Source of the DNA: Gimesia alba
GTDB lineage: Bacteria; Planctomycetota; Planctomycetia; Planctomycetales; Planctomycetaceae
Reading direction: 5' to 3'
Length of the DNA: 64,000 nucleotides
Assembly (NCBI RefSeq): GCF_007744675.1
Contig: NZ_CP036269.1
Coordinates: 4,753,546-4,817,545 of the forward strand
The notes under the pieces were generated by a model. That model saw nothing but the letters and a program-made list of their open reading frames with translations, searched no databases and was not told the DNA's origin. Positions 29,276 to 41,797 of this stretch are shown here, one piece after another. The position numbers and the translations under genes are program-made. Within the stretch, counting starts at the first letter, position 1; each line of letters starts with the position of its first letter.

Positions 29276-29770
29276 TGATTAAGTAAAAACGCTCAGGCTC
29301 AAATGAAGCTCACATCGCAAACGGTCTCAAATTGTCAGACACGTGATTTCATTTTATTAGTTCAATTGTGACTGAGGTAATCTTCTCATTCAGCTGGTCC
29401 TTAAAGAAATACTTACCTTTTTCAGAAGCGAACTGAGAAGTGAAAGGCTTTGAATCTCAAAGTAACTGACATAATTGTAAAAGTCAAGATTCGAATTGGG
29501 GCCGGTGATGTGGTTCCTCATGTGTTGCCAACGTCTTCCTTGCATATCAAAACTGGCAAAACCTGAATAGCACTGACAGCCTGCACGATGCTAGACGTTG
29601 ATATATGGCAACATTGAATTTTCTGTAAAATCAGTTTGTTCGGATGAATTTACTATGAGTTTCACCACCAACGGACTGAAAGCGGGCGAATCGACCAGAT
29701 CCGTAAAATGATGTATTACGTTTCATTTGCTGAAGAAACCGTTCCACAATCCATCTGACAGGAAAACATT
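29276..29770. other. Divergent intergenic region
   Basis: This 495-bp AT-rich spacer separates the leftward phosphoesterase unit from the rightward beta-lactamase-fold gene. I see no gene, RNA or strong hairpin. It presumably contains both promoters, but no hexamer pair stands out. Confidence 0.5.
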
Positions 29771-30916
29771 ATGACGATTTCAGTGAATTCTCCCCGTGCT
29801 GCTACTTCACACTGCTGGATGCTTACCCTAAGCCTGGCTCTGGTTTTTGCCGTCCCGGGAAGAATCTCAGCCGAATCGAGAGACTACCAGTCAAAACTCC
29901 CCGAAATTCGCAAACTCGTCTCAGATACGATGGCCCGGGAAAAATTGCAGGCGGTTCTGCTGGGGATCACAGTAGAAGGTAAGGAACTGTTGATCCTGGC
30001 GGAAGGAGAATCGATGACGGGTGTGCCCGCTACAGCCGACATACACTTTCGCAACGGCAACATCGCGGTGGCCTACATGGCGAATCTGTTCTATCAGCTT
30101 GTCGATGCGGGCATCGTCCGCGCCGACGACCCGGTCGGTAAGTGGCTGCCTCAACTGCCCGCAGCGCAGGCCGTCACACTCGAAATGCTCATTAACGGCA
30201 CCGCCGGTTACCCAGACTTCATGCCGATGGAGACGTTTCAGAAACAATTCTACGCCAACCCGTTCTATCAATGGACGCCGGAGGAACTAATCAAGTTGGC
30301 TTTCACGGAAAAACCGAAATTCAAACCAGGCAGCGATTGGAATTATGCGCACACCAACTTCGTGATCCTGGGTCTCGCACTGGAACGCGCCGCAGGAAAA
30401 CCGTTCGGCACATTGATGCAGGAACGCGTCCTGACTCCGTTCGGTATGCAGCAGACTGCCGCGCCAGGCACACCTCGGATCGCTTCACCCGTCCTGCATA
30501 CCTATTCTGACGAGCGGGGACAGTACGAAGACGCCACCTTCTGGAATCCGTCCTGGACACTGGCCCGCGGTGCCGTCCAGTATACGACACTCCGCGACAC
30601 GCTCGCCGGCTTCCGCGCCGTTGGTCAGGGTCAACGTCTCAAACCGGAATCCTTCCAGGCCATGCTCGCACCGCACACAGCTGGAATGAAGATCTGGACC
30701 AAAGACCGCTACTACGCCCAGGGCATTCTTGTCAATCAGGGCTGGCTCACCCAGGCCCCCAGTTTCGCCGGCCTGTACGGCACCGCCGGCTATCACCCGG
30801 ACAAAGACCTCACCGTCACCATCTGGTGCACGAAGTCGATCGATTTCAAATCAGACAGAAATCCGGTTTCCGCACTCTTCAAACAGGTCACCACGATTCT
30901 GACGACAGAGAAGTAA
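29771..30916 (+). CDS. Serine beta-lactamase-fold exported protein, catalytic motif degenerate
   Basis: The 381-aa protein has an N-terminal signal (WMLTLSLALVFAVPGRISA) and the overall layout of class C beta-lactamase-like hydrolases: FRNGNIAVAYMANLFYQLVD, DPVGKWLPQLP, PGSDWNYAHTNFVILGLALE and LYGTAGYHPDKDLTVTIW. Where the family has the catalytic Ser-x-x-Lys, this protein reads N97-I-A-V100, losing both the nucleophile and the general base. The second motif Tyr192 is kept (YAH). It is therefore likely a binding pseudoenzyme rather than an esterase or peptidase. The frame is clean and long, so it is under selection as a protein. Confidence 0.78.
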   Translation: MTISVNSPRAATSHCWMLTLSLALVFAVPGRISAESRDYQSKLPEIRKLVSDTMAREKLQAVLLGITVEGKELLILAEGESMTGVPATADIHFRNGNIAVAYMANLFYQLVDAGIVRADDPVGKWLPQLPAAQAVTLEMLINGTAGYPDFMPMETFQKQFYANPFYQWTPEELIKLAFTEKPKFKPGSDWNYAHTNFVILGLALERAAGKPFGTLMQERVLTPFGMQQTAAPGTPRIASPVLHTYSDERGQYEDATFWNPSWTLARGAVQYTTLRDTLAGFRAVGQGQRLKPESFQAMLAPHTAGMKIWTKDRYYAQGILVNQGWLTQAPSFAGLYGTAGYHPDKDLTVTIWCTKSIDFKSDRNPVSALFKQVTTILTTEK

Positions 30917-31135
30917 GTCGATTGATTGGCACGAAGTCTCTGGGAGATCATCATTTCGCAAACGCCAAGTTGATCAATGGTTTTACTGTCGTTTGATTCT
31001 CGCCTGGTTTCTACCATGAAACATTTTAGTATCATTGAGCCTTGATGGTGAAATCAAAAGTTCTATATGGTAAAGTCCTCTGCACAATCTGCGTCTCTCT
31101 GCCGACAAAGAATCAATTGAATCTGAGGAGTACCG

Positions 31136-32110
31136 ATGACTGCGAAGAGTTTTCAACCTGTAAAAATAGGTGTTATTGGCCTGGGTCGGTTTGGGCGATT
31201 GCATTCGTTGACGTTATCTCGGCTGGCAGAAGCAGAACTGGTGGGAGTGGTGGCTCGTCGGCAGGAGAGCCTCGCTGCCCTCAGCAAAGAACTTCCTGAT
31301 GTGCCGGGCTGGACGAATCTGACTCAGGCGATTGAGGAGTCGGATGCAGAGGCGTGGGTTGTCGCCTGTACGACGCATTCACATGTTGCTGTCGCCCGAG
31401 AACTCCTTGAACATGGCAAAGCGGTGCTGTTGGAAAAGCCGATTGCGGATCGTCTGGAAGAAGCGGAAAGCCTTGCTCCCCTGGTGCGGCCCGATTCGAG
31501 TAACCTGATGCTGGGACACATCCTGCTGTTTAACAGCGAGTTTCAAGAATTGCGGGAGGTGGCCCGCGAACGTGGCCCGATTTCTTATATTGATTGCGTA
31601 CGACATCGACCGGCGAGCATTGTTGAGAACTTTCCGGGTGAGAACCCCTTACATGCCGCGATGGTGCATGACCTGTATTCAACACAGGTACTACTCGATT
31701 GTGCGGAACCGGATCATTTCAGTGCCCAATATCATCGGACTGACGCAGGCGACATTGATCTGGCGGTAGCACAACTCCAGTGGAACGGAGGTCCGGTGGC
31801 ATCGTTTGCTGCCTCGTATTTAACACCTGCAGGTATGCCGCCGCGCGGGTTTGACAGAACGGAAGTGTTTGGTGTGGGTTGGTCTGCCCGTATTGAACCG
31901 AACCCGCGACCGATTTCTGTCTGGGACAACGAAGCCTCCTGGCCTCTGGCGTTGGAAGTGCGTGCCAACCCACCCAGCGGAATGATGGCTGAAGAGTTGC
32001 GTTGCTTCTGTCGGGTTGTACGTCAAATGGAAGCAGTGCCCACCGGAGCGACCTACTCAGATGCCATGCAGGTACAACGCTGGATGGAAAAGCTGACTGC
32101 GTTTGTCTAA
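31136..32110 (+). CDS. Gfo/Idh/MocA-family oxidoreductase
   Basis: This 324-aa NAD(P)-dependent dehydrogenase has the Rossmann motif IGVIGLGRFGRLHS near the N-terminus and the family EKP signature in LLEKPIADRLEEAE, where the Lys is catalytic. No signal peptide is present, unlike many planctomycete members. The ATG is preceded by TGAGGAG. The usual substrates are sugars, inositols or amino-sugar derivatives; the specific one is not evident. Confidence 0.88.
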   Translation: MTAKSFQPVKIGVIGLGRFGRLHSLTLSRLAEAELVGVVARRQESLAALSKELPDVPGWTNLTQAIEESDAEAWVVACTTHSHVAVARELLEHGKAVLLEKPIADRLEEAESLAPLVRPDSSNLMLGHILLFNSEFQELREVARERGPISYIDCVRHRPASIVENFPGENPLHAAMVHDLYSTQVLLDCAEPDHFSAQYHRTDAGDIDLAVAQLQWNGGPVASFAASYLTPAGMPPRGFDRTEVFGVGWSARIEPNPRPISVWDNEASWPLALEVRANPPSGMMAEELRCFCRVVRQMEAVPTGATYSDAMQVQRWMEKLTAFV

Positions 32111-32281
32111 CCAGCAGAGTGGTGATTCGGCCTCAGTTTATTCTGGAATCTCAGAAAGCCATCGTTTACGATACGAAGAAGAAAAAACGGTCCTATGGAT
32201 TCATGAATCAAGTAGAGATTTCATTTTTGATTTGGACAGTCATGCTATTGGAATCGCCTGAGTTTTTTCAGTGAGGCTATC

Positions 32282-33505
32282 ATGATGACTCATTTTACAC
32301 ATGCGTTAGGGGCATTCGCCATTGTTGGCTCCCTGTGCTGTTCATCAATGGCAGAGAATCGCACTGATACACAATCTGCTCTTAGCCCACCCGTATCCAG
32401 CGAACTTCTGGCCAAGATCAGACAGGTGGAGGGCCAGGAAAAGTATGGAGCGAACAATCAAATCATAAAACTGATGATCTTCAATCCCACTAACTCTCCC
32501 GATCATACGCTTCCGTTTCTACGAGAACTCAAGTATCTGGAAGATCTGTTCGTCACAAATGACAAGAACCATAAAGAGGCGACATGGATGATGTCCATTG
32601 CCAAACTTCCTCGACTAAAATCGCTGACGATCGATAGTGCCGATGTTTCCGATAAGACAATCCATTATTTGGCTGGGATCAAGACACTCCAAAAATTGAC
32701 ACTTGATGTCAGTGATGTCACGGATGTGGGAATCGAATCACTTCTCGGTTTAGAGAATCTCGAGTATTTAAAGCTGCGGTACACGCCTATCACCAATGTC
32801 GGACTAGCGAAGTTAACACGCTTGCCGAAGCTCAAGAAACTGTGGCTTGTAAATATTCCCATCACACCAGAAGGAATTCTTGCCTTTCGAGAGACAAAGT
32901 TGGAAGAGGTTATCTGGTACGACGAGGATCGACCTCGACTGGCGATGCTACCCTACCTCAAGCAATTGCCTCATCTCTGGCGATTAGATCTCAGATCCTG
33001 TTATGTTTCAAACCGGCATGTTGAGCATCTGCAGGAGATGAGTTCCCTGGAAGATCTGGATTTGTATGGGCACGCGATTACCGACTCGGGACTGGCTGGA
33101 TTGTCAAAACTGACGAAGATGCAATACCTCTGCCTGTCTCAGGCGGGAAAAAACAAAGCAAAAACACTCAGTGATGCAGGCTTAATTCACTTGGCCGGAT
33201 TATCAGAGCTGAGAGATTTGAGATTGGCCGGGATTCAGATTACCGACTCTGGTCTACGACAGTTGGCTGGATTGACAAAGCTGAGACGCTTGGATCTGAG
33301 TGGGACACGAGTCACCAGTGCTGGCCTTGCCAACCTCAGTCACCTGCTTCAACTCGAAAACCTCGATATCACGAGCACCCCTCTGCAAGATGAACCGATT
33401 GTCGATCTCCGGATGTTTCCCAAACTAAAAAATGTAACCGCCTATGGCTTTGATGAGAAGAAAATTCGGTCTCCTGCGAATTGCTCTATCGTTACATTTG
33501 ATTGA
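32282..33505 (+). CDS. Exported leucine-rich repeat protein
   Basis: This 407-aa protein has a signal peptide (THALGAFAIVGSLCCSSMAE). About ten leucine-rich repeats of the RI-like/GALA type follow, e.g. GIKTLQKLTLDVSDVTDVGI, GLENLEYLKLRYTPITNVGL, GLSELRDLRLAGIQITDSGL and GLTKLRRLDLSGTRVTSAGL. Planctomycetes contain many such exported LRR proteins, probably for binding. A lipid-modified Cys in the CC pair of the signal is possible but the lipobox is not classical. Confidence 0.85.
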   Translation: MMTHFTHALGAFAIVGSLCCSSMAENRTDTQSALSPPVSSELLAKIRQVEGQEKYGANNQIIKLMIFNPTNSPDHTLPFLRELKYLEDLFVTNDKNHKEATWMMSIAKLPRLKSLTIDSADVSDKTIHYLAGIKTLQKLTLDVSDVTDVGIESLLGLENLEYLKLRYTPITNVGLAKLTRLPKLKKLWLVNIPITPEGILAFRETKLEEVIWYDEDRPRLAMLPYLKQLPHLWRLDLRSCYVSNRHVEHLQEMSSLEDLDLYGHAITDSGLAGLSKLTKMQYLCLSQAGKNKAKTLSDAGLIHLAGLSELRDLRLAGIQITDSGLRQLAGLTKLRRLDLSGTRVTSAGLANLSHLLQLENLDITSTPLQDEPIVDLRMFPKLKNVTAYGFDEKKIRSPANCSIVTFD

Positions 33506-33735
33506 CATCACAGAGATTGCGTGATTAGGCAGTGACTCATGCCGACCCGTTGCCCGACAACAGATGAATCACTCCCCTTCATCCTTCGATTAATCCAACT
33601 CAAGTTCCTGTCTCAAGCGGACAGTCAACTTAGATAAAAACGCCAACTCATAATAGCTCAATTGATCATAGGCAGAAATCCTGATAGATTTAGATAAAAT
33701 CATATTTTGTCTCTCAATTTTTATGCGATTCAAAA

Positions 33736-34305
33736 ATGTCGACTCAGCATTTCACCGAGGATCTTGAATCGAAAGCCTGGGACGCCCATCGAGCGTTCCT
33801 TGTCGAGGCCGAACGTAGCTTCGGACCAAGGGATGATTCCTATACGGTTACCGACATTGTTCAAGAAATACATGGACCAACTTTGAGTCTCAATGGCCAT
33901 TCAGTCACCTTAGTCGTAGGTCCAAATGCGACGAAGTACTTCCCTGCCCTGATCGCAAATGTCGCACATGAAACCCTACATACATTGAATCCAGTCACCG
34001 GCAATGCCACCATGTTGGAAGAGGGTGCAGCGATTTATTTTGAACTTCAGATCATCAGTTCTCAATTTAGTGAAAGCGAAAGGAAATACTTCTGGAATCA
34101 TCTTCCAGAAACGTATAGAACTGCCTTTGCCGACTTTGAAACGCTATTAGGATTCGATCAAAACGCGGGGTTAACAATCCGAAAGGAATTTGGATCACTG
34201 TCTGATCTCGATAAAAATGGGCTGCGGAAACTATTCCCTGAACTTCAAGATGATTGCGCCAGTCGCTTGGTCACGCGTCAACGAATGCGGCCAAACGCCG
34301 GATAA
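33736..34305 (+). CDS. Cassette-borne HExxH metallopeptidase-like protein
   Basis: This 189-aa soluble protein has the zinc-protease motif H78-E79-T-L-H82 in NVAHETLHTLNP. A downstream MLEEGAAIYFE segment (E95/E96) could supply the third ligand, as in small gluzincin-like peptidases. The rest is not recognised. Its TAA stop (34303-34305) lies inside the first recombination box of an attC-like site, the typical arrangement of an integron cassette. No strong ribosome site is visible before ATG 33736, also common in cassettes. Possible roles include a toxin or a maturation protease. Confidence 0.65.
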   Translation: MSTQHFTEDLESKAWDAHRAFLVEAERSFGPRDDSYTVTDIVQEIHGPTLSLNGHSVTLVVGPNATKYFPALIANVAHETLHTLNPVTGNATMLEEGAAIYFELQIISSQFSESERKYFWNHLPETYRTAFADFETLLGFDQNAGLTIRKEFGSLSDLDKNGLRKLFPELQDDCASRLVTRQRMRPNAG

Positions 34306-34390
34306 CAAAATATTACACACAGAGCCGCGGGCCGCGCGGCAAATGAAATCAAAAGCGTTTCCCACGGCCCGGTGAACGTAGGCGTTATGT
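34300..34390 (+). other. attC-like integron recombination site A
   Basis: The outer boxes are R'' GGATAAC (34300-34306) and R' GTTATGT (34384-34390). The inner boxes are L'' TT-A-CAC (34313-34318) and L' GTGAA (34372-34376), with A34315 as the unpaired extrahelical base. The spacers are 6 and 7 nt. The central part holds GC-rich pairs (CGGGCC / GGCCCG). The size of 91 bp is typical. The inner L-box match is shorter than in site C. Confidence 0.72.
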
Positions 34391-34411
34391 TAATGGAGCG
34401 ATGACGAAAGA

Positions 34412-34813
34412 ATGTCACAAAACGCAATCGCAATCATTTCTGTCACATGCATAAGTGCGGTTCTTGGCACATTCGGTGTGATTGATTTTCAAACAACTCG
34501 TTCAATATCACGCATTGAAAATCTCGGCGGAGGCGTAAGATACGATACTGGATGGGGGGCGACCGTCTGCGAATGGGTTTATCTTGACGATACGGATGCA
34601 ACAGACACCGACATGAAATATGTTCGATATCTTTGGCCTCGCATCGGCGTTTCTTTGAGGAATACGAAAATCACAGATAACGGACTTCAAGAACTTCACG
34701 GACTTCCGTTGAGCGAAATCGACTTAACTGGAACCAAAGTGACTCCCGCGGGGATTAAAGAACTGCGTCAAACACTCCCATACACACATTGTCAAATTAA
34801 ATTTCAACCGTAA
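34412..34813 (+). CDS. Small membrane-anchored LRR protein following attC A
   Basis: This 133-aa protein has an N-terminal membrane helix (AIAIISVTCISAVLGTFGVI), a RIENLGGGVRYD segment, and one to two LRR units at the end (ISLRNTKITDNGLQELHG-like, then LTGTKVTPAGIKELRQ). It starts 21 bp after attC site A, as expected for the next cassette, but no attC follows it. It shares the LENLG segment and repeat end with the 246-aa LRR protein at 44749. The function is unknown, probably surface binding. Confidence 0.65.
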   Translation: MSQNAIAIISVTCISAVLGTFGVIDFQTTRSISRIENLGGGVRYDTGWGATVCEWVYLDDTDATDTDMKYVRYLWPRIGVSLRNTKITDNGLQELHGLPLSEIDLTGTKVTPAGIKELRQTLPYTHCQIKFQP

Positions 34814-35142
34814 TATTTCAATATACTAATATGTTGACCCCATAAGGTAAAATCTCAGCCGACTCGTATTCGTGAACTCATCGCTAAACAAGACACTCTT
34901 GCCAGAACGGTTCCTGGAGTGTCAGATCTAATGAATCTAAAACGAATGTTGTACCTTTCCTGAAAGCTCACCTCTTCACTTAGTAGTTTTCTTAATCGAA
35001 TGAACCGCTTCTGGATAATTTTCATTACATTCTGGCAAATCAATGCTAAAATGAACACCACTTGCTTCAAATCACAAGTCTGGGATGAGGTTGAGCAAAT
35101 CCACAAAGTCCAGGTCCTTAATAACTACACCCGAGTTAATGA
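34814..35142. other. Intergenic region before the ABC transporter
   Basis: Apart from the possible lyase relic, no gene is supported. An 83-codon ORF on the minus strand has no family resemblance. A weak -10-like TAAAAT occurs about 90 bp before the ATPase start. Confidence 0.4.
34850..34963 (+). pseudogene. Possible relic of a methylisocitrate-lyase/PEP-mutase family gene
   Basis: A 38-codon open segment reads SQPTRIRELIAKQDTLAR and TVPGVSDLM before a stop. This resembles the N-terminus of isocitrate-lyase/PEP-mutase proteins (R-x-R-x-L-x-A ... P-G-V-x-D). No start codon is present and nothing downstream continues the family. It is probably a decayed fragment, with low certainty. Confidence 0.25.
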
Positions 35143-35856
35143 ATGCCGCACCAAGCAAACAACGTACTCGTAGAACTCACCGGCGTGTCGAAGTCGTACG
35201 GAAATTTACATCCGGCTGTGAACGCGGTCAATGAAGTCTCGTTTGTCGTGAGCCGTGGCGAACGGGTGGCCCTGTTGGGTAAATCCGGATCGGGAAAATC
35301 AACGCTGCTGAATATGATAGCCGGGCTGGATCGGCCGACGAACGGGACAATTTGCGTAGCGGGACGAATCCTTTCCGAGCTCTCGGCGGCAGAGAGTGCC
35401 GACTATCGGCGGGAGTGCGTGGGGATGATCTTTCAGGCCTACAACCTCGTCCCCTGGCGCACGGCATTACAAAACGTGGAATTGCCGATGGTCTTCGACC
35501 GTAGGGGAAAAGCCGAGCGCGTTGCGGCGGCGCGGGAGGCATTAGCGGCTGTCGGGTTAGCTGAACGTATTGGGCATCGGCCCAGCGAACTTTCCGGTGG
35601 CGAGCAACAGCGGGTCGCCATTGCGCGAGCGTTAATGAACAAGCCGGAGCTGCTGTTGGCGGATGAACCGACGGGGAATCTCGATTCCTCGACCGCTGAC
35701 GAGATCCTGGAATCACTCCGCCGATTCACTGAGAGTTCTCAAACGGCGACGATTCTTGTCACGCACGACGAAGAACTGGCGTACCGATTTTCCACTCGTG
35801 TGTTGCATATGCTGGATGGCCGCCTGGAACGCGATTCGGGAGCTGCCAGCGTATGA
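35143..35856 (+). CDS. ABC transporter ATP-binding protein (LolD/MacB-like)
   Basis: This 237-aa ATPase has Walker [10 protein letters not shown], a Q-loop in [16 protein letters not shown], the signature [15 protein letters not shown], Walker [12 protein letters not shown] and the switch His in LVTHDEE. The MacB/LolD subgroup is indicated by [20 protein letters not shown] and [10 protein letters not shown]. It overlaps its permease by ATGA. Such pairs move lipoproteins, peptides or toxic compounds, or act mechanically rather than transporting. Confidence 0.92.
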
Positions 35857-37424
35857 AATTCCTTGACATCGTCTCCATGGCCCTGCTGGGCATTCGCCGG
35901 CAGAAAACCCGCACGGCCCTCTCGCTGATTGGAGTTGTAATTGGTTCGTTGATGCTGCTCTTCGCCCTGGCCTCACGCAGCGGCGTTCAGGAGGCAATCA
36001 TGCGGGTCTTCAGCATGAACAAGCAATTGCGACAGATTGAGGTCCAGCAGAATTGGGCGTACGCTGAAGATGAGATACCTGAAGAAGAATTGGAAGTTGA
36101 TGACGAATTAGACGAGGCCCTGCGCTGGCGGATTCGTCAAATGCTCATACGTCATTGGCAATTCGAACATCGAAGCGAGAGCATCGGACTGACGCGCGAG
36201 CGAATACAGAAAATTGAATCATTCGAACATGTGCAAAACATCCACCCTCGAATGTCAACCAGCGTCACACTGATACAAGGCCAGAATGAACTGCAGGGAA
36301 TAGGTGCGTCGGTCACCACCAACGATGAAGTCATGCGCGAACGTATTCTGGTCGGTAAAGCGTTTGACTCGGAAAATGAACCGGTGATTCTGCTCAATGA
36401 GTTTGTCGCCTGGAAATGGGGATACACCACGCGCTCTCAAATGCGCGAGCTGATCGGTACCAAAGTCAGAATAGAATACCGCTTTGGTGAGGAAGGCGTC
36501 GCCTACTCACTCTCACGTCGCAGTGGAGGTGATATCGAGTTCAGTAAGGAAGAGTTAACTGCCTTAAACCGTGCGCTGGATCGCATCCCAACCATGATCG
36601 ATGATTTGACGTTCTCAGAGCAGGAGCGTGCGGTTTTGAAGAAAGCGTTTCAGCCAACACCGGCAACTCCGAACCAGGAGTCTGAATCTTTCGAGCGAAT
36701 TATTGCAGAGGAGTTTACGGTCGCCGGTATCTATCGCGGCCCGACCGAGGAGGAAACGAACGACCATGTGCAACTAGGTCATAATGACGATTTTGCCGAG
36801 TTCCTGCTGCCGATCAAAACGGAGACCCAATTTGCGATGCGTATCCCGTTCGTCAAAAAGTCAGGCTTCTATAATGCGACGGTGCTGGTTGACCATGAAT
36901 CACACCTCAAAGATGTGTCAAAACAAATTCGCGAGATGGGCTTCCGCGAATACTCGTTGATCTCAATGGTCGAATTCATCCAGAAACAGGTTCGCCAGGT
37001 CACGCTGATCGTATCCTTGGTTGCTCTTTTCGCGTTAGTTATCTCTGCTGTAGGGATTGCCAACACGATGGTCATGAGCGTCGTCGAACGCACGCGGGAA
37101 ATCGGCATCATGAAGTCATTAGGCGCCCGCGAAGGGCAGATTCAAATGCTGTTTCTGATTGAAGGTGCACTGATCGGATTGATCGGCGGACTCTGCGCGC
37201 TGGCCATTGGCCTGGTAATCAAGATCCCGATCGAATCGATGACCATTTCAATCCTCGAAAGCGAATTGAACAAAACCTTCGAGCAGCAGCAGGTGATCGA
37301 GTTCCCGCTCTGGCTGCTGGTCGCGGTACTGGCCTTCAGCACGGCCGTCACCACCCTGGCAACGATCCTGCCCGCACGCAGAGCGGCACGCATCGATCCG
37401 ATAACCGCCTTGCGACATGACTAA
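35853..37424 (+). CDS. FtsX-like / MacB-like ABC permease
   Basis: The 523-aa protein has one N-terminal membrane helix (RTALSLIGVVIGSLMLLFAL), then a large extracytoplasmic MacB-PCD-type domain of about 330 residues with an unusually acidic and charged start (DEIPEEELEVDDELDEAL). Three C-terminal helices carry the FtsX signature (SVVERTREIGIMKSLGARE, LPARRAARIDPITALRHD). It overlaps the ATPase gene by 4 nt, so the two are translationally coupled. Which substrate it handles is unknown; no periplasmic adaptor is adjacent. Confidence 0.9.
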   Translation: MKFLDIVSMALLGIRRQKTRTALSLIGVVIGSLMLLFALASRSGVQEAIMRVFSMNKQLRQIEVQQNWAYAEDEIPEEELEVDDELDEALRWRIRQMLIRHWQFEHRSESIGLTRERIQKIESFEHVQNIHPRMSTSVTLIQGQNELQGIGASVTTNDEVMRERILVGKAFDSENEPVILLNEFVAWKWGYTTRSQMRELIGTKVRIEYRFGEEGVAYSLSRRSGGDIEFSKEELTALNRALDRIPTMIDDLTFSEQERAVLKKAFQPTPATPNQESESFERIIAEEFTVAGIYRGPTEEETNDHVQLGHNDDFAEFLLPIKTETQFAMRIPFVKKSGFYNATVLVDHESHLKDVSKQIREMGFREYSLISMVEFIQKQVRQVTLIVSLVALFALVISAVGIANTMVMSVVERTREIGIMKSLGAREGQIQMLFLIEGALIGLIGGLCALAIGLVIKIPIESMTISILESELNKTFEQQQVIEFPLWLLVAVLAFSTAVTTLATILPARRAARIDPITALRHD

Positions 37425-37493
37425 GGGGCAAAATTCTAACACCGTTGAAATGACCGCGTCATTCAGTCCAATTTCTCTTTCATTGCCCCTTAG
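37421..37493. repeat. 11-bp perfect inverted repeat after the permease
   Basis: CTAAGGGGCAA (37421-37431) and TTGCCCCTTAG (37483-37493) are exact complements with a 51-nt spacer that itself holds AATGA/TCATT. The first arm includes the permease stop. It may be a complex terminator or the trace of a small element. Confidence 0.45.
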
Positions 37494-37598
37494 CTCTGTA
37501 TGCTCTTGACATCTCTATCCCATTCAAACAAAATCCGGCTAACTCTATCGTGAGTGGTTAAACCGAAATCATGCGGTCTCATTCAGGTGATTTGCAAG

Positions 37599-38234
37599 AT
37601 GAGATGGATCATTCCAATGACTGGCTTGTTCCTGCTCGCTGGATGCCAACCAGACGAGCCAACTTCGCATACCGCTCGTGTACCGCAGCCATCTCCCGTC
37701 GCAGACAATTACATTGTTCTCACCGTTCCTCCGGAACCGTTGCTCGATAAGATGGCTCAGCTGTACTCACCGGACGATGCCGAATGGTCAATGTTAGTAA
37801 ATGAGTTTGTCGAGAACGGACATCCAATTCTTCCCTATGTGATTCGCCAGCTACAGGAAGACAATAAACTATCTCCGGATTTGGGAAAACAAATTACCGA
37901 ACGCATAGCTCAATCCCCTGCTGTTACCGTCGACGCACAGCGAATCATCTCACTCATGGAGATCGCCTGTTATGCAGATATTATGTGTCATCGTATCGAA
38001 TACCCGCTACGAGTCGCCACACTAGACTACGTGAAATCAAACATCGATTCACAAGGGACCAAAGACGCATTACACTGGATACGTGATTCGTATCGTAGCG
38101 GATTGCCTCTTGATAGTCCCGGTGACGAAACCGGTGACTTTCGCGGACTGCTCGTTAAATCGATGCAAGGCCGACTTAACGCGTATGCAAACCAATTACT
38201 TGGATCGATCGATTCGCAATCAGGCAGCAACTAA
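37599..38234 (+). CDS. Cassette-borne lipoprotein
   Basis: This 211-aa protein has a lipoprotein signal MRWIIPMTGLFLLAGC with the lipid site at Cys16. The mature part is mostly helical and not recognised. The ATG at 37599 is preferred because it places the lipobox correctly; a GTG at 37554 would add 15 residues before the signal. The TAA stop (38232-38234) is part of the R'' box of attC-like site B, indicating a gene cassette. Small exported proteins of unknown function are common integron cargo. Confidence 0.7.
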   Translation: MRWIIPMTGLFLLAGCQPDEPTSHTARVPQPSPVADNYIVLTVPPEPLLDKMAQLYSPDDAEWSMLVNEFVENGHPILPYVIRQLQEDNKLSPDLGKQITERIAQSPAVTVDAQRIISLMEIACYADIMCHRIEYPLRVATLDYVKSNIDSQGTKDALHWIRDSYRSGLPLDSPGDETGDFRGLLVKSMQGRLNAYANQLLGSIDSQSGSN

Positions 38235-38315
38235 CCAAAGAATACACTGACGTCGTCCGGTCGCATAATGAAATCAACGTTGCTGGTGGGAACTCGGTGA
38301 TTTTAGACGTTATGC
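38229..38315 (+). other. attC-like integron recombination site B
   Basis: R'' AACTAAC (38229-38235) pairs with R' GTTATGC (38309-38315) through TAAC/GTTA. L'' AAT-A-CACTGA (38241-38250) pairs with L' TCGGTGATT (38294-38302), with A38244 as the extrahelical base and one mismatch. The spacers are 5 and 6 nt and the length is about 87 bp. The next ORF starts 22 bp after it. Confidence 0.78.
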
Positions 38316-38337
38316 CGCAAATGGCAGGGGGAACGAG

Positions 38338-38802
38338 ATGACCAACAAATCCCGACGCAGTACAGTCATCGGAGCTCTTGCCCTGCTTTGCGTACTGTTA
38401 CCCATCCTCAGTAAACTTTTATCGCCAAAGTCCTTGTCTCCGCGAGAGCAGGCCTTCGTGGGTACGTACACACTGACCACCATTAATAACGATACTGTTG
38501 CATACTCTATCACCTTTCTGGCTGACCGGTCATGCGTTTACAATTACAATGGTCTCACGACAAAAGGGGCCAACAGTCAATGGGAGCTTTGCGATGATCA
38601 CCTTCGCATTTCACATCACTATCAGATTGTCCCTTTCAATATTGGTCTAACGCTTCCACTTGTTCGTGCCACCGAGACGGACTCGTGGATTCTCCGCAGT
38701 ACAACTAAGCCGGACACATTCTCGCTCACATCCGACGTCAGTTCGCTCGCAGACGGTACTCTAGCTCTTACCGAGCACCGTAAACACATGATCGTCAGGT
38801 AA
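38338..38802 (+). CDS. Cassette-borne small membrane-anchored protein
   Basis: This 154-aa protein has an N-terminal membrane anchor (VIGALALLCVLLPILSKLL). A beta-rich extracytoplasmic domain follows (FVGTYTLTTINNDTVAYSIT, FLADRSCVYNYNG, ANSQWELCDDHLRIS), which looks like a small lipocalin- or META-like barrel. It starts 22 bp after attC site B with an AGGGGGAACGAG ribosome site, and site C follows 44 bp after its stop, so it is a complete cassette between two recombination sites. The function is unknown. Confidence 0.7.
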   Translation: MTNKSRRSTVIGALALLCVLLPILSKLLSPKSLSPREQAFVGTYTLTTINNDTVAYSITFLADRSCVYNYNGLTTKGANSQWELCDDHLRISHHYQIVPFNIGLTLPLVRATETDSWILRSTTKPDTFSLTSDVSSLADGTLALTEHRKHMIVR

Positions 38803-38846
38803 CAGCGTAATAGGTAGTGGCGTGTCCGACCACCAATTCCGTGGCG

Positions 38847-38936
38847 GCATAACAATACCGTGAACCGGAGCATTCATTCACGCGTCAACTGGAATCAAAG
38901 TCTTCCGCTCGAGCCCGGTTACGACAGTCGTTATGC
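38847..38936 (+). other. attC-like integron recombination site C
   Basis: R'' GCATAAC (38847-38853) and R' GTTATGC (38930-38936) are perfect complements. L'' CGT-G-AACCGG (38859-38868) and L' CCGGTTACG (38915-38923) pair perfectly except for G38862, the single extrahelical base that gives attC sites their polarity. The spacers are 5 and 6 nt and the total length is 90 bp. This is a textbook attC architecture and the best of the three in the window. Confidence 0.88.
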
Positions 38937-38990
38937 TTGCCCGGTCGAGACAACACCGTCTTCCGCTTGCTTCGATATCAAAAAACAAAG

Positions 38991-40811
38991 TCAATTTCCC
39001 AAGTCCTGCAGGAACAGCAAACGGACTTCGCGATTTTCCTCGTGGAACGTCAAGCCGGTTTGTTCAGATACGTGCTGGAGGACCAGCTGTGTGTTCTTGG
39101 CAAAATTTCTGGGAAAATTTTCCCATGTGGTGTGTTCGGATTGATCGAAATAGATGCGCCAGCCAATGGATCCCTGGGGCGGGTTTTTAATTTCACTAAG
39201 GACAGGGCGGCCGACACGGTAGCCAATTGCTTTGAGGAAGTCAGGAAACTTCCCGGCACTCTCTGCGAAATGTAGTTTATCAGGCTCGGGACCTTCCTTG
39301 CCGTAGATTAAATAGGATTTATCCTCAGGCCGCCTCCATGCGGGGCCTATGGGGGCGGGCTGGAATGTTCCTCGTGCCACGTAGACTTCTCGGTCGACTT
39401 TTTTAAATTCGAGGGAGACCTGCAGCTTCAGATCATGATTCAGCATTGAGCCGAGGTCCTCAATGATGGCTTCTGTCGATGTCCCCTTGCGGATGATAAA
39501 ATCTCCTCCCAGTTTCGTGTTCACCCAAAGCCGGGAATTCCCATCCAGGTCGACAGGCTGGAGGCCTGTGAGAACGGGGACCACAGAAAAGAGTGAAGAA
39601 GGTTGATCGCCAAACCCTCGCGATTTCAACTTCAAGTTCCCTGCGTCCCATTCATAAATATTCAAACCGGTTCCGGAGAGATACTTGAAGCGTTCCTCTT
39701 TTGAGAGTGTGAGCATTTTTTCCCGTGGTTCATTTGTCACGGGAGGAGCGAATGCGACCTGTCGGGGGGCGGATTCAGGCTGAATTGTTTTCTCCTCAGC
39801 CACAAGCTGGAAATCAAAAAGATTGATGGCGAGCAACAACAGGGGGACGAGAAGCAGCAAAGTTCGTTTCATCATGGACCTTTCGGGTGGTGCAGGAGAA
39901 AGGATTCGTCGAATGCGGTGATATAATTTTCCTCCCCGGGCGGCGGATGCGGGAGAGTGAATCTGGTGGGAATCACTGCCGATCCGAAACAACGCACGCG
40001 CATAATCGGCGATGGCATCCGGATTGTTGTTGAGGACTTCATCATCGCAGAGCAACTCGGCACACTCATCGAGCTTGTTGAGGGTCCACCATGCCAGAGG
40101 ATTGAACCAGTGCAGGCAAACCACGAGCCGCGCGAGGAATCCTTTCCAGATATCCCCATGCCAGAGATGGGCCAGTTCATGATGTAAGATTGCCAGGCGC
40201 TCTGTTTCGGTCAGGTCAGACCAGAGTTGTCGGGGAACGAAAACGCGAAATCCCCGCAGCAATAAACAGAGCATGGGACCAGCATCGTGTGTGATGTGCA
40301 GGGGAATTGGTTTTCGGATGTCGTACTGTTTCAAGACGGCCTGCCACTCCCTGGCCCATGTTTCGGTGGCGGGCTCACTGTGGCGAAGTCGTTTTGCCGA
40401 GATGATGTAGGCGGAAATCCACCAGAGCACAATCAGTCCGCAACCTGTGATCCAGATCGAGGCGGCAAGAGAAAACCAGTTGAATCTGGTGACAAGCTCA
40501 AGATCTGAATTGGTGAGAATCACTGGCGATGGATTTGTAGTGGGATTGACGGGGGTTGCGTTCAGGTTTTCTTGATGTACTGAGTCGAACGAAATGTTTT
40601 TTGTGTTGTCCGTGGGAAACCAGGGAATTGCCACCGAATAGTGCAGAAAGATGACTCCCTGAAGCATGACCAGCGCCCATGCAGCCTGGTGCCAGCGAGG
40701 CGAGGACGGTTTGATCCAGAGCAGCAGCCCTCTGACGATCAAGGCGGCGATGCCAAGGGCTAAAGTCGATCTCAATATCGCATCGAATAAATAATGGTAC
40801 GCTGAATTCAT
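38991..40811 (-). CDS. M56-family (BlaR1-like) membrane sensor metallopeptidase, system 2
   Basis: The 606-aa protein has N-terminal membrane helices (LALGIAALIVRGLLLWI, WALVMLQGVIFLHYSV, IWITGCGLIVLWWISAYII) and an M56 domain with H211-E-x-x-H215 in ILHHELAHLWHGD. A fourth helix follows (MMKRTLLLLVPLLLLAINLF), then an extracytoplasmic part of about 270 residues with no recognised sensor. It lies 3 bp after its BlaI-type repressor. As in the BlaR1 model, it should transmit an outside signal by proteolysis. The gene ends 54 bp from attC site C and faces the cassette cluster. Confidence 0.83.
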   Translation of the reverse strand: MNSAYHYLFDAILRSTLALGIAALIVRGLLLWIKPSSPRWHQAAWALVMLQGVIFLHYSVAIPWFPTDNTKNISFDSVHQENLNATPVNPTTNPSPVILTNSDLELVTRFNWFSLAASIWITGCGLIVLWWISAYIISAKRLRHSEPATETWAREWQAVLKQYDIRKPIPLHITHDAGPMLCLLLRGFRVFVPRQLWSDLTETERLAILHHELAHLWHGDIWKGFLARLVVCLHWFNPLAWWTLNKLDECAELLCDDEVLNNNPDAIADYARALFRIGSDSHQIHSPASAARGGKLYHRIRRILSPAPPERSMMKRTLLLLVPLLLLAINLFDFQLVAEEKTIQPESAPRQVAFAPPVTNEPREKMLTLSKEERFKYLSGTGLNIYEWDAGNLKLKSRGFGDQPSSLFSVVPVLTGLQPVDLDGNSRLWVNTKLGGDFIIRKGTSTEAIIEDLGSMLNHDLKLQVSLEFKKVDREVYVARGTFQPAPIGPAWRRPEDKSYLIYGKEGPEPDKLHFAESAGKFPDFLKAIGYRVGRPVLSEIKNPPQGSIGWRIYFDQSEHTTWENFPRNFAKNTQLVLQHVSEQTGLTFHEENREVRLLFLQDLGN

Positions 40812-40814
40812 TCG

Positions 40815-41216
40815 TCATTGACCTTTTCTGCTCTTCTGTTCTGCGACGTCTAAAAGTTTTTTGAGTTCTTTGACTTCATCCCTGGTCAGAGATCGTTCCG
40901 TGATCAAGTGCTTCATGAGCGGGACCACTTTTCCGGACGTGAGCTTTTCGAGAATCTGTCCGAGGTATCCTTCCGTGGCCTGGTCCTGCGTAGCGACCGC
41001 CTGGTATAGAGCCGGTCTCTGGTCGCTCTTTGTTGCCAGCCCCTTAGCGGCTAACCGATTCAGACGGGTTTGCATCGTGGGATAGGCGATCGGATTTCCG
41101 TAGTCACTAAAAGTCTCGTGTGCTTCTGCGAGAGTCAGCGGCCCTTTTTCCCAGAGCATTTTCATCAATTCCATTTCTCCCGGGGATAAACGGACGGCAT
41201 TTTTGCTTTTATTCAT
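40815..41216 (-). CDS. BlaI/MecI-family repressor, system 2
   Basis: This 133-aa winged-helix repressor has LSPGEMELMKMLWEKGPLTL, YPTMQTRLNRLAAKGLATKS and the C-terminal cleavage/dimer region. ATG at 41216 follows TTGGAG; a TTG at 41228 is less likely. Two BlaI-type operators lie directly upstream (41231-41272), so autorepression is expected. Its partner protease follows in the same transcript. Confidence 0.86.
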   Translation of the reverse strand: MNKSKNAVRLSPGEMELMKMLWEKGPLTLAEAHETFSDYGNPIAYPTMQTRLNRLAAKGLATKSDQRPALYQAVATQDQATEGYLGQILEKLTSGKVVPLMKHLITERSLTRDEVKELKKLLDVAEQKSRKGQ

Positions 41217-41230
41217 CTGGAACTCCAATT

Positions 41231-41272
41231 TATTACATGTGTAATATTCAAGATTATATTACCGGTGTAATA
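41231..41272. promoter_or_regulatory. Two classical BlaI/MecI-type operators (system 2)
   Basis: TATTACA-TG-TGTAATA (41231-41246) is a perfect palindrome and TATTACC-GG-TGTAATA (41257-41272) differs at one position per arm. Their centres are 26 bp apart. Both contain the TACA-N2-TGTA core known for BlaI/MecI. They end 15 bp upstream of the repressor ATG on the minus strand. Confidence 0.82.
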
Positions 41273-41797
41273 ATACGCAAGAGCAAGCGAGAGATTTTAT
41301 TGGTCAGCAGAAGAGTATCGTTTACAATTCCTCGTAGGAGCAAAAATCCTGCCCCCGTTGAATTGATCGAGGCATTCAACCGAACCTCTTTTTCATTGCA
41401 CCTTGCTCATTTCTCTCTTGACAATTTGCCCCTGCTGGTACAAAATTCCACTAGTTCTACTCTAGTCAGCCCACTGAGATACTGGGAACGTTTGCAGGTT
41501 GTGTCATCGGACTGGCATCAGCTGCACACCATCGCAACCTGATAAAACGCTCAAACTGAAACCGGCTCGTTGAGCGATCGTCTTATTCGCTCGCCCAGCC
41601 AACGTTGACAACGAAATATTCACCGAAAAACGTTGTTACTTTGCTGCTCATGGTCCCCCCAAGGGGTTCAATATCAAGGGGACCTACAACAACTCAGACG
41701 ACGAACGATTGTGTTTGTAAATAAAAGCCGCACGCCGTCACCAGTAGCGATAACTGCGTTCGGTGAGACTTTCTTTAAGAATAGGGTCGATTGAATC
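41273..41797. other. Intergenic region with a possible gene relic
   Basis: This is a gap of about 525 bp. A startless open stretch at about 41573-41720 (containing EIFTEKRCYFAAHGPPKGFN) has protein-like composition but I do not recognise it; it may be a decayed gene end. Nothing else is supported. Confidence 0.3.

Follow-up and report, generated by a model that had tools for sequence, protein, structure and literature searches.

A cluster of attC sites lacking an integron-integrase (CALIN) is an array of cassette recombination sites without its own integrase, and the loss of a recognisable intI is among the origins proposed for it (PMC9024848, PMC8618304). In Treponema phagedenis, attC sites and cassettes remain past the loss of intI, a case described from one locus in one species (PMC3607928), and in chromosomal integrons with intI pseudogenes, such as those of Xanthomonas, intI decays and the array stays, with the pseudogene reported per integron (PMC2426708). 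Mobile integrons can also carry attI material away from intI, in Delta-attI-type gene cassettes where a partial attI replaces the attC downstream of an open reading frame (ORF) (PMC12901181). CALINs and intI pseudogenes are already known from these and related sources, as are integrons in Planctomycetes and an attC model for them. Neither multi-copy orphan attI sites nor integrons of Gimesia were described in the portions of the open-access literature, PMC8352920 included, that we covered. Here we describe a 64-kb window (G000:C1:4753546-4817545) from the 7.77 Mb, single-contig genome of a bacterium described as a Gimesia-type marine organism, probably of the genus Gimesia, that holds three attC sites, their cassettes and an orphan attI.

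The locus shares features with each of these systems and departs from each. Like a CALIN, the Gimesia loci hold attC sites and cassettes without an integrase; defined as at least two attC sites and no integrase, a CALIN is present here, with three attC sites in the window and no integrase in its own genome or in a genus set of 17 genomes. Unlike a CALIN in those accounts (PMC9024848, PMC8618304), the Gimesia loci retain a whole attI, in several copies per genome and some with intI stubs. The likeness to T. phagedenis lies in the persistence of attC sites and cassettes, but in Gimesia these occur in 15 of 17 genomes, are dispersed, and come with an identified attI (PMC3607928). Compared with Xanthomonas, no intact intI was found across the Gimesia set and attI is multi-copy (PMC2426708); and whereas the partial attI of Delta-attI cassettes lies downstream of an ORF, the whole attI of Gimesia heads the array upstream of it (PMC12901181).

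We propose that the window very probably contains a platform (attI, cassette A and a second cassette) and a separate attI-less pair (B and C) of an old, multiplied chromosomal integron, whose integrase has been lost while attI, attC and cassettes persist. The original prediction, an integrase-less cassette cluster in a planctomycete, is supported both by the covariance-model scores and by the differing cassettes of relatives. As we read the DNA, it missed the attI upstream of cassette A, and it missed that B and C form a separate pair without an attI of their own. Legible in the letters themselves are attC sites, attI sites, cassette boundaries, the lack of any IntI over the cut-off, and intI stubs. 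Below, G-numbers denote genomes (G000 being the window's own) and L-numbers fetched loci; a family set of 150 genomes complements the genus set.

The three attC sites lie on the + strand at 34300..34390 (A), 38229..38315 (B) and 38847..38936 (C). Our covariance model of attC (R1), built from 17 aligned related sites with no window sequence included, returns exactly the boundaries that had been predicted, all on the same (+) strand, at 80.0 bits for C (E 2e-20), 73.4 bits for A (1.7e-18) and 43.5 bits for B, the weakest of the three (9e-10); these E-values are rough. There was no further match in the window up to E=5. The covariance-model search proposed as a check thus scores all three sites well, with R1 in the place of IntegronFinder's model, and the low scores that had been named as refuting were not seen. 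Each site also stands, as had been claimed, at the 3' end of a small ORF of no clear family. Excluding the window does not make R1 fully independent of it, because the training sites (one from G205, which belongs to the same class, and 16 from the genus, including three at other loci of the own genome) were retrieved by BLAST with the window's own sites as queries. In the own genome R1 recovers 10 sites at E<=0.1, and across the genus set 100 at E<=0.01, which fall in 15 of the 17 genomes; the two genomes without a site are 74% and 76% complete. Rfam gave no match at gathering in the window and none at E<=1 in 33500-39000, and no tRNA was found as a target.

When the attC pairing and its extrahelical bases were imposed on the 17-site alignment, 51 cells showed a double change, where shuffles gave 26.1 and the six slid registers 11-21, and the covariation score was 0.299 vs 0.157. 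Two of five measures were not above shuffles (pairs with a double change, 12 vs 11.1; further pair types, 29 vs 29.9). For A and B, pairing on its own makes a weak case. A plain scan for R and L boxes scores C at 16 and A and B at 10 each; five 2-mer-block shuffles of the window (320 kb) yielded ten matches scoring 13-16, three further places in the real window reach 14 or more, and the scan cannot separate A and B from chance. Minimum free energies were unremarkable against shuffles for all three sites (bottom-strand z -0.17, 1.73 and -1.22). What lifts the sites beyond chance is the covariation across the 17 sites together with their recurrence in other genomes. With the R1 matches in the window, we regard all three as genuine attC sites. 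The R''/R' and L''/L' boxes and extrahelical bases of a complete integron's attC are present, with a caveat on the folding of A and B that is taken up below.

A DNA search of 33500-39000 in 40 relatives revealed a dispersed repeat at ~33658-33718, immediately before cassette A. We identify this 63-bp repeat as attI, because its conservation ends at G|TT, because it has a match beside intact intI genes, and because intI stubs accompany it in the arrangement of an integron. The window copy (33658..33720, +) is an orphan and would be the primary insertion point that a complete integron has. Model R2, built from 18 copies outside the window that a BLAST search with the window copy had retrieved, matches the window copy over 33658-33725 at 61.9 bits. 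The recombination point of the window copy falls after 33720, and it ends in TT instead of the consensus AG, so that this copy looks somewhat decayed. R2 gives 108 matches at E<=0.001 in 15 of the 17 genus genomes, of which one or more are echoes on the opposite strand; outside the genus, five of 139 other family genomes matched, four weakly. R1 and R2 are single models, and the family searches scored at most 29 (R1) and 33 (R2) candidates per genome.

Aligned on their 3' ends, 61 attI copies are conserved from about -62 to G|TTA, after which conservation vanishes. These are 61 of the 63 R2 matches at 49.9 bits or more, out of 125 in total; L115 (a near copy of L101) and L153:2602 were left out, and the 62 weaker matches, some of them opposite-strand echoes, were excluded. 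Within 3 kb of the 108 attI matches, same-strand attC sites lie downstream in 44 cases and upstream in 13, and there were none on the opposite strand. A TTGATA-N17-TAGATT sigma-70-like sequence inside attI occurs within 3 mismatches in 47 of the 61 copies (19.7 expected, the copies being related) and may be a cassette promoter, Pc. The idea that the repeat is a second kind of attC was rejected: it is without a conserved AAC-type R'' partner and resembles the attI found beside intact intI. In named contigs, an exact 21-nt attI pattern was met in two stretches, both of one uncultured Gimesia metagenome-assembled genome, a search from which near genomes may be left out.

The comparison with intact integrons used the 3' 32+3 nt of attI, scored over loci with an intact intI; 35 were fetched, two had too short an upstream region, and the 33 scored represent 31 distinct loci, two being second fetches of G257 and G024. 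In seven of the 31 the highest-scoring place in the locus is immediately upstream of intI, points away from that gene and has its end at G|TT, with scores of 23.5, 16.2, 6.8, 2.9, 0.3, -0.9 and -9.0 (G257, G402, G421, G512, G024, G417 and G468, respectively); from the share of positions scanned, one to two such first-ranking loci would be expected by chance. These seven attI sites, from the same family, have the same 3' layout as those of Gimesia but, unlike them, adjoin an intact integrase. L178 also ranks first but does not end at G|TT and was not counted; L217 and L218 rank third and second, and the G|TT of L242 is one base past the place that was scored. Separately, in L175 (7545-7611; G024) a remote attI-like copy of 33.1 bits lies away from that genome's intact intI, with attC sites 4-6 kb downstream, which suggests that orphan platforms may coexist with an integrase.

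The claim that the cluster has no visible integrase is borne out well beyond the window. No genome of the genus set (0/17) has an IntI over the curated TIGR02249 cut-off of 265 bits, and the best places in the own genome reach 82.5 bits; of the components of a complete integron, an intI over this cut-off is thus lacking. A 321-aa TIGR02249-like protein at G000:C1:2348971-2349786 was rejected as the integrase, as its best match is XerA-like, it falls below every cut-off and it lies beside an IS91 transposase. In that region (L079 5778-8063; G000:C1 ~2347777-2350062), the IS91-family transposase and the XerA-like tyrosine recombinase adjoin a low-scoring attC match of 38.2 bits.

Traces of former integrases are present beside attI. 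A profile built from 34 IntI sequences, which include two second fetches, was searched over 1.5 kb either side of the 61 attI copies and gave eight matches at E<0.01 upstream on the divergent strand, belonging to seven distinct attI, since the stub in L091 was seen from two neighbouring attI and was counted once. The three other placements around attI gave 0/61 each. All the stub matches fall within profile positions 1-89, at the N-terminal end. A further, eighth stub was found in L116; the stubs are spread over six genomes (G396, G048, G397, G398, G381 and G069), and five are 54-67% identical to the G257 integrase. From these data we take the absence of integrase, with intI stubs, to be a genus-wide condition. 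In the family set, IntI over the cut-off was found in 38 of 150 genomes and an IntI match at E<=1e-40 in 44, and R1 found attC in 121; at least 77 genomes would therefore have attC without such a match, a figure inflated by the many drafts. G283 and G315, of the same family and assembled in 1 and 2 contigs, have 23 R1 attC matches each and no IntI at E<=1e-40, and integrase-less attC sets are thus not limited to Gimesia.

Cassette A (33721..34384, +) opens right past the attI junction and closes with the G of the G|TT in attC A, and cassette C (38310..38930, +) spans the interval from the G|TT of attC B to that of attC C. Once a cassette has been inserted, its start is expected to pair with the R'' of the attC that it carries itself. 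Across 35 cassettes (48 adjacent pairs under slightly different spacing; pairs without AAC near the expected place were dropped), R'' matches the own start at 100 of 140 variable positions, compared with 66.8 after permutation, and none of 5000 permutations was as high. Cassette A matches its own start at 3/4 variable positions, and cassette C at 4/4, its R'' matching the next start at 4/4 also. The G|TT-bounded cassettes of a complete integron, their starts complementary to their own R'', are thus found here, with no start known for B.

Behind cassette A lies a second cassette unit (34385..34862, +), whose ORF (34412-34813, 133 aa) is weakly leucine-rich-repeat-like; no attC was found at the end of this unit. 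In G394 the same unit stands directly behind attI, with the same joining base (397 columns, 87.4%), and the stretch 33726-34382, that is cassette A, is absent. In G385 and G227 a cassette that we call X precedes the unit and ends in an R''-L'' stub of attC. Different cassettes therefore occur behind the same attI. The proposed comparison with close relatives thus did not give the second result that had been named as refuting, the same ORFs at fixed positions.

We suggest the following history. The lineage would once have held one or more integron integrases, akin to that of G257, which would have inserted circular cassettes at the G|TT of attI. The platforms would then have multiplied, and the intI genes would have decayed afterwards, leaving the attI-proximal end. 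Given the sigma-70-like sequence within attI and the terminator-like tails behind many arrays, a platform may even now work as a promoter-cassette-terminator module. On this account the lost IntI performed the insertions, and the platforms are presumably now static or nearly so.

Five observations weigh against this history. Neither attC A nor attC B folds into an attC hairpin by DNA energies, although C does (bottom-strand single-stranded DNA folding gives R-box pair probabilities of 0.97-0.99 for C and at most 0.008 for A and B). R'' also matches the start of the next cassette at 69/140 positions, above permutation (p 0.007). In the attI comparison, 24 of the 31 relatives' loci fail, and three of the seven that pass score near or below zero. 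No stub was seen at the six own-genome attI copies tested. Finally, platforms whose flanks are 93.6-96.6% identical hold different cassettes, which fits poorly with an integrase loss old enough to be genus-wide.

This last point raises the question of how cassettes have changed recently. Between G048 and G069, a 2.2-kb stretch that stops seven bases short of the junction is 96.6% identical, and the next 4 kb show no detectable homology. The own genome (5404765) and G385 are 93.6% identical over 1.0 kb upstream and 88.5% over 2.2 kb downstream, with unrelated segments of 0.8 and 1.9 kb between. Such exchanges, and the good conservation of attI and attC where no IntI is found, are what one would expect if platforms were still active, with cassettes moved among orphan attI by an integrase supplied in trans, be it an IntI that a plasmid or phage brings in transiently or one of the host's own non-IntI tyrosine recombinases. 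We consider this quite improbable: the 17 genomes have no IntI over the cut-off, in a search that did not extend to intI on plasmids and phages, the XerA-like protein beside an attC match is part of an IS91-like element, and several orthologous platforms, four attI pairs other than the two above among them, hold the same cassette. A related and also unlikely view is that Gimesia maintains a distributed integron of scattered, promoter-bearing attI platforms without a resident integrase, whose cassettes are still exchanged by a visiting IntI, another recombinase or another mechanism.

The same swaps could have come about without any recombinase, by homologous recombination between platform copies through the shared upstream 200-300 bp, attI and often the tail. 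Many attI copies do share ~220-310 bp upstream, up to +1 to +6, and many last attC sites lead into a common tail, as comparisons based on 94 of 106 R1 matches (25.6 bits and above) show. Swapped pairs, of which there are two, also have a more diverged attI (26/32 and 24/33 identical) than the four unswapped pairs (28/32 to 32/32), a contrast that at six pairs is too small to decide. We find this explanation rather unlikely, since the pairing of R'' with its own start, and the way the ORF 34412 unit is joined precisely at G|TT in G394, need site-specific insertion at some time. An old integron that has lost its integrase remains our preferred reading; the recent exchanges may have been the work of an IntI that persisted late, of one that visited, or of homologous recombination among the copies of the platform.

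The B-C pair must be considered apart from the platform at 33658. Between the two lie genes for an ABC transporter ATPase and an FtsX-like permease (35143..37424, +), which had been suggested to be original chromosome and indeed behave as backbone: in G385 the ABC genes stand directly behind a Gfo/Idh gene (L080 9953 then 10001), and they have long DNA matches in six same-genus genomes. Gene order in G385 is bla-like, attI platform, Gfo/Idh, ABC (L080 4692-12657), and in the window (29594-37584) it is bla-like, Gfo/Idh, leucine-rich repeat, attI platform, ABC. Homology with G385 stops at 37584, with no match at E<=1e-20 there for window 37400-41300, and homology with G381 and G398 resumes at 38953, just past attC C. 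These limits, and the lack of an attI before B, would fit off-target (attG-type) cassette insertions in the backbone or a rearranged piece of a larger array, an origin for B and C that we regard as a real possibility, if short of probable. An attG junction is, on the other hand, not demonstrable, as the 5' end of B's cassette was not found; cassette A follows attI and is hence not attG-type. The ORF before attC B (37554..38234, +, 226 aa) has DNA matches of 72-75% in five same-genus genomes and a 124-bp match in G394, all in other places. By our own reading it would be lipoprotein-like from the in-frame ATG at 37599.

The ORFs of cassette A (33736..34305, +, 189 aa) and cassette C (38338..38802, +, 154 aa) belong to no family, and among 5.8 billion proteins their sole match was themselves, in a search that relies on shared 5-residue words and may miss remote relatives. 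Pfam, NCBIfam and PADLOC gave nothing convincing for the four ORFs. The HETLH of the cassette A product is possibly a metal-binding HExxH motif.

Gimesia thus offers an attI family that is defined by sequence, lies outside class 1 and exists in many natural copies, by which orphan platforms become recognisable where tools report only CALINs. It also provides a natural experiment on the fate of cassettes once the integrase dies: which persist, how they still change behind one attI, and whether platforms become ordinary promoter and terminator modules. No empty platform, sought as attI fused to the common tail with at most 3 mismatches, was found in the 17 genus genomes.

Sequences past the last attC sites show recurrent structure. 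The common tail, ~115 bp long, has the TT of the final attC junction as its first bases and a terminator-like hairpin at its far end; it was seen directly past attC in L103, L101, L116, L106, L091, L118, L142, L107 and others. In the window, a repeated hairpin-like sequence, possibly a terminator, lies past the ORF 34412 unit at 34865-34946 and has matches in G396, G385 and G398. In L127 and L165 the attC is followed by a tail of a second family, whose first part is similar to the sequence past attC C in the window.

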